Assembly: GCF_020614395.1 (NCBI RefSeq)
Contig: NZ_CP085324.1
Coordinates: 1,679,564 to 1,743,563 of the forward strand
Reading direction: 5' to 3'
Length of the DNA stretch: 64,000 nt
Source of the DNA: Salarchaeum japonicum
GTDB taxonomy: Archaea; Halobacteriota; Halobacteria; Halobacteriales; Halobacteriaceae
Below are positions 20,179-23,505 of this stretch, piece by piece (positions within the stretch are counted from its first letter, which is position 1; every line of letters starts with the position of its first letter). Made by a program: the position numbers and the translations under genes. Below the pieces are notes generated by a model. The model had not been told where the DNA came from, did not search any database, and was given only the letters and a program-made list of their open reading frames with translations.

Positions 20179-21333
20179 ATGGATTTCGAGCTATCCGACG
20201 AGCAGGAAGCGATTCGGGAGGAGGTTCGGCGGTTCGCGGAGAACGAAATCGCGCCCGTCGCCACCGAGTACGACGTGGAGGAGAAGTACCCCCACGAGGT
20301 CATGGAGAAGGCCGCGGAGATGGGGCTGACGGGCTCCGGCATCCCCATCGAGTACGGCGGCGCGGGCTACACGCCCCTGGAGAACGCCATCATCATCGAG
20401 GAACTGTTCAGTTACGACCCCGGTATCGCGCTCTCCATCACGAGCGCGGCGTTCGGCGCGGACGCCATCCGCGAATTTGGTACTGAAGCACAGAAAGAGG
20501 AGTACCTCACGCCGATTGCGGAGGGCGACGCCGTGATGGGAACCGCGATTTCGGAGCCCGATACGGGCAGTGACGTGTCCGCCGTCTCCACGCGCGCGGA
20601 GAAGGACGGGGACGAGTACGTCCTCAACGGCAACAAGATGTGGATCACGAACGGCTCCGTCGGGGACTACTTCGTCGTGATGTGCAAGACGAACCCGGAG
20701 GCCGACGACCGGTACGCGGGCTTCAGCCAGATTATCGTGGAGTCCGACCGCGACGGCTTCAGCGCGGAGAAAATCACGGGCAAACTCGGGATTCGCGCGA
20801 GCGACACCGCGGAACTCATCTTCGACGACGTGCGCGTCCCCGAGGAGAACCTCGTCGGCACGGAGGGCATGGGCTTCCTCCAGTTGATGCAGTTCTTCGA
20901 CGAGACGCGGACGATGGTCGCCGCGCAGGCGGTCGGCATCGCGAAGGGCGCGTGCGAGCGCGCGCTCGACTACGCGCAGGAGCGCGAGCAGTTCGGGAAG
21001 TCCATCGGCGAGTTCCAGGCAATCCAGCACAAGCTCTCCGAGATGCACACGAAGACCGAGGCCGCGCGCAACCTCACGTACAAGTCCGCGTGGAGCGTGG
21101 ACAACGCGGACGACCAGCTCACCGCGCTCGCGTCGATGGCGAAGGAGTTCGCGTCGAAGACCGCGGTCGAGTGCGCGGACGAGGCCGTTCAGATTCACGG
21201 CGGCGCGGGCTACGTCAACGACTTCGACGTGGAGCGCCTCTACCGCGACGCGAAAATCACCCAGATTTACGAGGGAACCACGGAAATTCAGAAGAACATC
21301 ATCGCCCGCGAACTGATGGGGAAGGGCTTCTAG
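20179..21333 (+). CDS. Acyl-CoA dehydrogenase
   Basis: FAD enzyme that introduces the alpha-beta double bond into an acyl-CoA and passes electrons to ETF. 384 residues, full length. Motifs: AISEPDTGSDVSA (FAD binding), NGNKMWITNGSVGD, DREQFGKSIG-like QEREQFGKSIGEFQAIQHKL, and the C-terminal IHGGAGYVNDFDVERLYRDAKI; the catalytic Glu is in YEGTTEIQ. Chain-length preference is unknown. The start at 20179 gives MDFELSDEQE. The stop codon is shared in a CTAG overlap with the convergent regulator gene. It is similar to, but not recently duplicated from, the gene at 39627. Confidence 0.95.
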   Translation: MDFELSDEQEAIREEVRRFAENEIAPVATEYDVEEKYPHEVMEKAAEMGLTGSGIPIEYGGAGYTPLENAIIIEELFSYDPGIALSITSAAFGADAIREFGTEAQKEEYLTPIAEGDAVMGTAISEPDTGSDVSAVSTRAEKDGDEYVLNGNKMWITNGSVGDYFVVMCKTNPEADDRYAGFSQIIVESDRDGFSAEKITGKLGIRASDTAELIFDDVRVPEENLVGTEGMGFLQLMQFFDETRTMVAAQAVGIAKGACERALDYAQEREQFGKSIGEFQAIQHKLSEMHTKTEAARNLTYKSAWSVDNADDQLTALASMAKEFASKTAVECADEAVQIHGGAGYVNDFDVERLYRDAKITQIYEGTTEIQKNIIARELMGKGF

Positions 21334-21521
21334 TCGGGCGTGAAGATGTCCTCTATCCGGCAGTCGAAGTGGGCGGCGAGTTCGAACGCGAGGTCGAGCG
21401 ACGGGTCGTAGCGGTCGCGCTCGATGGCGTTGATGGTCTGACGGGTGACGCCGACCGCCTCGGCGAGGTCGGCCTGACTCAGGCCCGCGCGCTCGCGTCG
21501 GTCGGGGAGGTCGTTTTTCAT
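21330..21521 (-). CDS. XRE/Cro-C1 family DNA-binding regulator (63 aa)
   Basis: Consists of little more than one helix-turn-helix: RERAGLSQADLAEAVGVTRQTINAIERDRYDPSL (residues about 9-42). It ends in a short Leu/Ala-Phe helix and CRIEDIFTPD, as in the small archaeal/firmicute YgzD-like regulators. It is translated directly after the membrane-protein gene through an ATGA overlap. The pair is a common archaeal regulator plus membrane-partner unit. The palindromes at 21935-21967 upstream of the pair are good candidates for its own operator. Confidence 0.9.
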   Translation of the reverse strand: MKNDLPDRRERAGLSQADLAEAVGVTRQTINAIERDRYDPSLDLAFELAAHFDCRIEDIFTPD

Positions 21522-21931
21522 CGGCGGCGTTGGACGACGCCGAAGCAGACGCCGTAGAGCAGGAAGAGCGCCGACGCGACCCAGACGCCGCCCCAGACGG
21601 TGGCGGTGAGTTCGACGTAGCCGCCGGCGTCGAGGACGTACAGCGCGGGGATGACGCTGATTCCGACCAGCATCGCGATGCGCATGGTGAGGCCGCTCGC
21701 GTGGTTGTGTAGGTCGTTGTCGCGTTCGTCCTGGAGAGTCGCGTCGGTGAACTTCGGCGCGAGGACGGCGATAGCGCCGCCGACCCAGCAGCCGACCAGG
21801 TAGACGGCGGTGCCGGCCACCTGCTGGTCGAGCAGGAGGCCGGCGAGGAGGCCGAATATTCCGACGCCGACGACGGCGTAGACGGTTCGTTCGTAGGTTT
21901 GACGGGTGAATCCCGTTTGTGACACCGACAT
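21518..21931 (-). CDS. DUF2178-like four-helix membrane protein, partner of the XRE regulator
   Basis: 137 residues with four hydrophobic segments (about 17-34, 41-58, 87-105, 113-131). A conserved-looking cytoplasmic loop KFTDATLQDERDNDLHNHAS lies between helices two and three. This arrangement, and the coupled small XRE regulator, match DUF2178-type proteins. ATG 21931 (MSVSQTGFT) is preferred over GTG 21943 because the palindromic operator lies immediately upstream of 21931 and the GTG would fall inside it. Function unknown; sensing of membrane or envelope state is a guess from the pairing. Confidence 0.75.
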   Translation of the reverse strand: MSVSQTGFTRQTYERTVYAVVGVGIFGLLAGLLLDQQVAGTAVYLVGCWVGGAIAVLAPKFTDATLQDERDNDLHNHASGLTMRIAMLVGISVIPALYVLDAGGYVELTATVWGGVWVASALFLLYGVCFGVVQRRR

Positions 21932-21934
21932 TGT

Positions 21935-21967
21935 GTAAAGCACCCTTTACAGTAAAGCGTACTTTAC
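21935..21967. promoter_or_regulatory. Tandem palindromic operators GTAAAG-N4-CTTTAC
   Basis: Two perfect inverted repeats lie side by side: GTAAAG-CACC-CTTTAC at 21935-21950 and GTAAAG-CGTA-CTTTAC at 21952-21967, with centres 17 bases apart. They sit 4-36 bases upstream of the membrane-protein/XRE operon start, where TFB/TBP should bind, and about 30 bases upstream of the TATA-like GGTTTTTCCC box (21999-22008) of the divergent SLC13 gene. Likely binding sites for the XRE protein, possibly controlling both directions. Confidence 0.7.
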
Positions 21968-22029
21968 ACTTCGTGGTAAGTCTTTCGCCGCCACGGGGTT
22001 TTTCCCGATACCCGGAGACGAGGGAGGTG

Positions 22030-23505
22030 ATGAATCAGCGGAACGCGCTCACCGTCCTGGGGGCGCTCGCGCTCACGGGACTGGTGGCGTTCGGCCTGTC
22101 GCCCGAGGGGTTGTCCACGACCGGCCGGTACGCGCTCGCGACGGGCGTGTTCGCCGCGGTGCTCTGGGTGACCGGCGCGCTCCCGCTGTCCGTGACGGCG
22201 CTCTGCGTCCCGGTGCTCCTCGCCGGACTCGGCGTGTCCTCGCTTGAGGGCGCGCTCTCCGGGTTCGCAGACCCCGTCGTCTTCCTCTTCCTCGGGACGT
22301 TCGTGCTCGCCGGCGCGCTCCGCGAGCACGGCATCGACCGCGTCGTCGCGTTCGCGCTCCTCCGACGGGTCGGCTCCACGCCCCGCCGCACCGTGTTCGG
22401 CGTGATGCTCGCCACCGGCGTGCTGTCGATGGTCATCTCGAACACGGCGACGGCGGCGCTGATGGCTCCCGTCGCGCTCGGCATCGCGGAGTCCGCGGGC
22501 GGCGGGCGGAACTTCCGCGTCGGCCTCCTGCTCGGCGTCGCGTACGCCGCGTCCGTCGGCGGCGTCGCCACCCTCATCGGCACGCCGCCGAACGCCATCG
22601 TCGTCGGCCAACTCGACGAACTGCTCGGCGTCTCCGTGTCGTTCGCGGACTGGCTCCTCGTCGGCGTCCCGCTCGCCGCCGTGAGCCTCCCCGTCGTCTG
22701 CGTCGTCCTGCTCGCCGTCTTCCCGCCCGACCTCGACGCGGACGCGCTCGCCCCCGCCGACCACCCCGAAGCGCCCGCACTCGACAGCGAGGGGCGGCGG
22801 GTCGCCGCCGTGTTCGCGCTCGTCGCCGGCCTCTGGGTCGTCGGCGGCCTCGGATTCCTCCTCGACGGCGTGCTCCCCGCGGCGTGGCTCGTCACCGTCT
22901 TCGGCGGAACCGGCGAATCCGTCCTGGAGACGCTCGGCCACCAGGGACTGCTGTACTACGCGCTCGTCGGCCTGCTCGCCGTGCCGCTCCTCGTGCTCGC
23001 GGGCGCGGCGGACGAGGGAAGCCTCCGGAACGTGGACTGGCCGACGCTCCTCCTGTTCGGCGGCGGTATCAGCCTCGCGGACGCGCTCGGAGAGACCGGC
23101 GCGACCGAGTGGCTCGCCGGCGCGCTGTTCGGCGACCTCGCGCTCCCCTCCATCGTCCTCCTGCTAGCCGTCGTCGCGCTCGTCACGGTCGCGCTCTCCG
23201 AACTCGCGTCCAACACCGCGACCGCGGCCGTGATGGCTCCCCTCCTCATCGGCGTCGGGCTCGCCGTCGGCCCCGCGTTCGGCATGCCCGGCCCCGAGGC
23301 CGCGACCTATCTCGCGGTCGGGAGCGCCGCCGCCGCGAGCTTCGGGTTCGCGCTCCCCGTCGCCACCCCGCCGAACGCCATCGTGTACGGCACGGGCGAG
23401 GTCACTCGCGCGGAGATGCTTCGCGCGGGCGTCGTCCTCGACCTCGCGCTCGTTCCCGTGCTCACCGCCGTCCTCACGCTCGTCTTCGGCGTCGTCGCGT
23501 TCTAG
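22030..23505 (+). CDS. SLC13-family (DASS) anion/dicarboxylate carrier
   Basis: 491 residues, about 11-12 membrane segments. The duplicated SLC13 signature is visible twice: [18 protein letters not shown] with [12 protein letters not shown] in the first half, and [18 protein letters not shown] with [12 protein letters not shown] in the second. These SNT and TPPN motifs bind Na+ and substrate in this family (sulfate, succinate, citrate and similar). The substrate is undetermined. The ATG at 22030 was selected because the upstream in-frame ATG (21919) lies across the operator region. The 3' end shares a CTAG with the convergent VIT1 gene. Confidence 0.9.

Follow-up and report, generated by a model that had tools for sequence, protein, structure and literature searches.

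Predicted double operator of a DUF2178/CylR2-like regulatory pair in Salarchaeum japonicum

A pair of palindromes directly in front of a two-gene operon of Salarchaeum japonicum is, as predicted from sequence comparison, a conserved operator. The operon probably encodes an autorepressed sensor-repressor pair working in a CylR1/CylR2-like manner, with the HTH protein predicted to bind the double palindrome and the co-encoded membrane protein as its probable input. This reading builds on computed evidence for the site, its conservation, its association with HTH genes, the register of the promoter and the protein fold.

The double palindrome and the operon promoter

The following features are given in coordinates of the window, the whole stretch of 64,000 nucleotides that was analysed:

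21330..21521, minus strand: HTH regulator P0001 (63 aa, HTH_3, CylR2-like), second gene of the operon
21518..21931, minus strand: membrane protein P0002 (137 aa, DUF2178, PF09946), first gene of the operon
21935..21950, no strand: predicted operator palindrome I, GTAAAG-CACC-CTTTAC, GTAAAGCACCCTTTAC, proximal to the operon start codon
21952..21967, no strand: predicted operator palindrome II, GTAAAG-CGTA-CTTTAC, GTAAAGCGTACTTTAC, 17 bp from I
21948..21955, minus strand: predicted transcription start zone, placed about 26 nt from the TATA-like element
21976..21991, minus strand: BRE/TATA-like basal promoter of the operon (BRE CGAAAG at 21987-21982, TATA-like ACTTAC at 21981-21976), its register conserved in haloarchaeal relatives
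22030..23505, plus strand: divergent neighbour P0003, a DASS/SLC13 anion symporter, on the other side of the operator

Congruent with the preliminary description, GTAAAG-N4-CTTTAC occurs twice with 17 bases between the centres, both copies being perfect and separated by a single base, 21951, which is T on the operon strand. Palindromes I and II are the sole matches within the window at up to 2 mismatches, as compared to a mean of 0.14 matches in 100 shuffles of the window, one of which reached two. Indeed, a search of the entire 2.34-Mb genome for the exact palindrome recovered I and II and no further copy (control 0; 0.0105 exact copies are expected per genome from the base composition of the window), an outcome that favours the paired site as first described. 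When up to 2 mismatches were accepted across the genome, the palindrome matched at 7 places vs 12 for the control, and the five weak matches are noise. Thus, no regulon member beyond the operon can be named, and the regulon of this genome appears to be the operon itself.

We then aligned, in the orientation of the operon, 101 haloarchaeal sites out of 104 targets with membrane and HTH genes. Following removal of 16 loci (Clostridiales-type, other low-GC or chance), these 104 compare with 112 other targets, the latter including spurious short ORFs from the simple gene caller as well as membrane genes with a missed HTH. A BRE/TATA-like block, about CRSCGANAGATTTAW, occupies positions -23 to -9 relative to the operator, and in 98% of the 101 sites a T separates the two palindromes; the half-site letters are conserved through the selection of sites, whereas flanks, spacers and middle base are free of that selection. 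In the conserved register 86 of the 101 sites score at least 5, using a matrix built with the scored sites included, and the window promoter reaches 9.7, which is above 99.99% of the window positions and below the median of 17.6 among the relatives. With the BRE/TATA elements in fixed register, the usual archaeal distance from TATA box to start places the start inside the operator. Transcription is therefore predicted to begin at the operator centre, with the operator spanning the start and not the TATA box. The first palindrome had originally been thought to cover the basal promoter, an assignment that has to be abandoned considering that the conserved BRE/TATA elements lie outside the operator, 9-23 nt upstream. 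The position of the operator rather hints at a block of the polymerase than of TBP.

Conservation of the site and its association with HTH genes

The 33-bp double site, at up to 2 mismatches, was recovered from 150 out of 391 haloarchaeal genomes, representing 54 out of 86 genera, counts that do not represent independent events as the genomes are related, and a reversed control gave none among the matches listed for the 391 genomes. Most copies are positioned directly 5' of an operon for a four-helix membrane protein and a small HTH protein. In a set of 59 genomes, 19 of the 34 with the HTH (a match at E 1e-8 or better) carry the double site, as opposed to 0 of the 25 without it (p 1.3e-6, with relatedness ignored), and the other 15 HTH-bearing genomes lack it at 2 mismatches. 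Among the matches listed, we also assembled 169 non-redundant double sites at up to 3 mismatches, merging identical 83-bp cores only, so that close strains are counted separately. For 126 of them, an HTH gene of this family lies at most 1.3 kb away and has the site 5' of it, while 8 are found within 1.3 kb on the 3' side, between the HTH and the next genes, which in most cases encode an ABC ATPase or a small membrane protein. For the remaining 35, the family HTH is absent within 1.3 kb of the DNA examined; these comprise in part cuts at locus ends, in part apparent other targets and in part Clostridiales sites.

Next, HTH homologues were picked by protein alone, blind to the site, yielding 92 loci in sets that each include their query locus. 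The palindrome, at up to 1 mismatch, is found within 1.2 kb upstream in 27 of 30 haloarchaeal and 21 of 30 Bacillales loci, with 0 in both groups for the reversed control. Restricted to 700 bases upstream, with all 92 loci counted and one at a contig end (L289) wrongly cut, the numbers are 26 of 30 for haloarchaea, 21 of 30 for Bacillales, 4 of 30 for Methanobacteria and 1 of 2 for betaproteobacteria, the palindrome hence being absent from 26 Methanobacteria and 9 Bacillales homologues. In the same test, 40 scrambled palindromes gave means of 0.000, 0.150, 0.025 and 0.000 for the four groups, respectively, with a maximum of 2, and the reversed control 0 throughout. This comparison links the site to relatives of the HTH protein in Archaea and Bacteria, in agreement with the initial assignment of the paired site to the XRE/membrane operon. 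Of 22 haloarchaeal pairs, 17 are spaced by 17, and the spacing is variable in Bacillales (16, 17, 28, 29, 44 and others). Exact 17-bp double sites adjoining HTH and membrane genes are moreover found, among the matches listed, in Methanobrevibacter, Bacillaceae, Massilia and Hyphomonas. Judged from these sequences, the palindrome code is common to Archaea and Bacteria, and the 17-bp doubling is mainly haloarchaeal. Four Halobacterium-type loci (L262, L267, L269 and L270) display a single palindrome with 1-2 mismatches at the HTH operon and paired sites beyond the HTH gene, where L270 has only one at up to 1 mismatch. This arrangement counts against the present reading, as do the HTH-bearing genomes and homologues lacking the site, the double sites without an adjoining HTH and the below-median promoter score of the window.

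The relatives also provide a view of what else the site may control. In several genera the double site stands 5' of genes encoding an ABC ATPase together with a permease of about 530-580 residues, in some cases preceded by a small membrane protein. At six loci (L075, L076 and L088-L091) the HTH gene is on one side of it and genes for an ABC transporter and/or a small membrane protein are on the other, which likely represents an extension of the regulon and a lead to the signal. Pfam analysis of five neighbours of such sites identified the L089 ATPase as ABC_tran, a lipoprotein 3' of the site at L063 as DUF3887 plus alpha/beta hydrolase, and a neighbour at L055 as NUDIX, with a similar-looking lipoprotein (by eye) on the other side of that site; the permease and the small protein of L089 gave no Pfam match. 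At the thresholds used, the sole other member of the window's genus that was searched (G025) yielded neither the double site nor a match for either protein of the pair, and given this the module looks accessory.

A few further occurrences were noted. In Mogibacterium/Clostridiales MAG contigs (L108, L113, L133, L141, L142 and L165) the same double palindrome sits beside GTPase-like or ribonuclease-HII-like genes (named by eye), some with extra single copies close by, with A, T, C or G as middle base and with no adjoining HTH found; perhaps these constitute a lineage-specific regulon or a repeat. A relaxed double site is also present in four IMG/VR viral contigs (L317:3592-3624, L318:8897-8929, L319:2142-2174 and L320:12630-12662), two of which (L318 and L319) have AGGAGG, resembling a ribosome-binding site, within the second spacer and directly 5' of an ATG. 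The stretches examined of these four contigs hold no ORF with the recognition pattern of the HTH family, and other XRE-like ORFs are found in L319 and L320. Lastly, a contig labelled Gemmatimonadetes (L104:189-845) carries a haloarchaeal-looking module with a membrane protein 46% identical to P0002, reflecting either gene transfer or a binning error.

The two proteins and related systems

P0002 matches DUF2178 with 24.4 bits, against a Pfam gathering cut-off of 22.8, and its model has four helices at a pLDDT of 89.8. We selected the ATG at 21931-21929 on the minus strand, 3 nt from the operator, as start codon; a longer form beginning at a GTG (21943, inside site I) is less likely. The strongest conserved feature of this protein is D68-E69-R70, nearly invariant across 48 proteins, and by the positive-inside rule both termini and this DER patch would be cytoplasmic. 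A fold search of the PDB with P0002 returned 0 matches at E <=0.001 and 29 up to E 10, none of them convincing. The start of P0001 overlaps the stop of P0002 (ATGA), and the two genes are presumably co-transcribed.

P0001 aligns to CylR2 (2XIU) over residues 3-60 with a phmmer E of 4.3e-13, and its model (pLDDT 96.1; five helices, two-residue strands at each end) superposes on chain A of the CylR2 structures 1UTX and 2XIU with a TM of 0.93 at 44-46% identity. P22 c2 and 434 Cro were also among the matches of the fold search. The closest solved structure is DR_2454 of Deinococcus radiodurans (PDB 9K3W, PbsX family), with an E of 3.8e-15, 54% identity and a TM of 0.97 (chain B); a literature search by this locus name gave no relevant paper.

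The sequences also suggest where specificity may reside. Among the invariant columns of an alignment of 26 sequences from both domains, hand-picked from the 92 site-blind loci and mostly site-bearing, are N3, R27, Q28, E34, Y38 and P40. At position 3, counted in 81 of the 92 loci, Asn is found in 49 of 50 site-bearing homologues, whereas those without the site have Asn in 13 and Thr in 18 of 31, a contrast that is confounded with the methanogen clade; the filter used required Arg27, so invariance at position 27 is partly imposed. The Arg27-Gln28 pair is changed in 4 of the 9 palindrome-less Bacillales loci (L242, L246, L252 and L254), and the haloarchaeal L265 has Arg-Arg at 27-28, yet keeps the palindrome. 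Position 3 and Arg27-Gln28 are thus possible specificity residues, to be taken as leads only.

As for known systems, the window operon most resembles the cytolysin regulators CylR1/CylR2 of Enterococcus faecalis (CylR2: PDB 1UTX and 2XIU), where a single-domain HTH protein of about 65 residues, like P0001, is likewise encoded with a small membrane protein. In contrast, the window has an archaeal promoter and a four-helix DUF2178 protein, while CylR1 is described with three predicted helices. The operon is flanked by the SLC13 carrier gene and an acyl-CoA dehydrogenase-like ORF (named by eye), with no lantibiotic genes among these flanking genes. The comparison with CylR1/CylR2 covers HTH sequence, fold and gene pairing, and considering that adjoining lantibiotic genes are lacking, we describe the module as working like CylR1/CylR2 rather than as a member of that system. 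According to reviews, the PL promoter, overlapped by PR, is the target that CylR2 binds and represses; CylR1, a suspected membrane protein, is required for induction, and the step from CylR1 to CylR2 is described as not understood (PMC3709268, PMC5454873). CylR1/R2-like genes are also described within a Bacillus lantibiotic cluster (PMC11343131). No account of the present operator was found in the literature searched, mostly openly accessible and including passages of PMC5454873, PMC3062615, PMC3709268, PMC8960796 and PMC11343131. The operator code may in part already be known for CylR2 itself.

Two further comparisons are of a more general kind. In SdpR/SdpI-type systems a membrane protein relieves an autorepressor, a resemblance in working only. 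Paired dyads bound by HTH dimers are familiar from the Cro-CI operators of Lambda, 434 and P22; the window differs from these in being a cellular operon with a membrane partner, a 17-bp spacing and no divergent lytic/lysogenic switch.

Proposed mechanism, alternatives and significance

From these findings a course of regulation can be proposed, in which the binding and its cooperativity, the repression, the part played by the membrane protein and the signal are all inferred. Two CylR2-like dimers would sit side by side across the transcription start, one per GTAAAG-N4-CTTTAC, and when bound would block loading of RNA polymerase, not TBP, rendering the operon autorepressed. The co-transcribed four-helix membrane protein would be the probable input: upon a signal at the membrane, the DER patch may contact or titrate the repressor and thereby release the operon, as proposed for CylR1/CylR2.

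The operator could in principle act in both directions, with the SLC13 carrier on the divergent side also repressed, in which case the substrate of the carrier would give a clue to the signal. Indeed, the P0003 start codon is only 63 nt from the site, and a plus-strand BRE/TATA-like match at 21922-21939, overlapping palindrome I and facing SLC13, scores level with the operon promoter (10.2 vs 9.7). Such a match is no general by-product of the site, with an opposite-strand score of at least 9 in just 4 of 101 loci. It however also overlaps the first P0002 codons, and operator bases supply part of its score. Moreover, a tblastn search with the SLC13 protein found it adjoining the site at 1 of 194 loci, the window's own, in a set where some genomes occur twice and many loci reach only 1.5 kb to each side. 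The gene on the other side of the site is inconsistent in kind as well as in direction, a crude gene caller placing 53 in the same direction, 43 divergently and 5 at an edge. We consequently regard the bidirectional operator as unlikely. The placement of SLC13 in the same regulon, put forward as a possibility in the preliminary description, thus finds no support in conservation, and its use as a substrate clue for the membrane partner was dropped since the carrier is not conserved beside the site; local co-regulation is kept conceivable by the plus-strand promoter-like match.

Two small overlapping genes with a patchy distribution, missing from the other genus member searched (G025), could alternatively form a toxin-antitoxin module, composed of an HTH antitoxin and a membrane toxin, with the operator serving conditional autorepression. 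P0001 is weakly similar to HipB/HigA-type antitoxin models, but all scores for HipB, HigA and Y4mF are below their NCBIfam cut-offs (best TIGR03070, 37.9 vs 71.65). The presence of the site 5' of ABC-transporter and lipoprotein genes in relatives fits better with a sensor-regulator, and the membrane protein being most strongly conserved in its DER motif likewise argues against a toxin, making this alternative quite improbable. Hardly any more credit can be given to the HTH protein activating the operon or further genes via the double site: some Cro/CI-type proteins do activate, yet the operator is downstream of BRE/TATA and over the predicted start, which is the position of a repressor, and we judge activation to be very improbable. 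An explanation of the site by AT-rich palindromes arisen by chance, or by a structural DNA element that has no partner protein, has the simplicity of the sequence in its favour and nothing more, and its probability is negligible. A chance origin is ruled out by the low expected number of exact copies, by the conservation of the double site (150 of 391 genomes, with none for the control among the matches listed) and by its tie to the HTH.

Taken together, these results make of an unnamed DUF2178/HTH pair a regulatory module open to testing, whose predicted operator is present in 150 of the 391 haloarchaeal genomes searched. They offer a case of an operator code common to Archaea and Bacteria, as well as a string with which genomes can be searched for the regulon of an uncharacterised membrane sensor. 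Tentatively, a phosphorelay-free module of a four-helix DER sensor, a CylR2-like repressor and a 33-bp double operator may be common to both domains with its operator code intact, the same code operating against archaeal TBP/TFB and bacterial sigma promoters, and may be recruitable to genes for lipoproteins and ABC exporters. Should the membrane protein relieve repression, the pair would represent a simple form of archaeal signalling without a phosphorelay, and the unsolved step from CylR1 to CylR2 would become open to study in harmless laboratory archaea.
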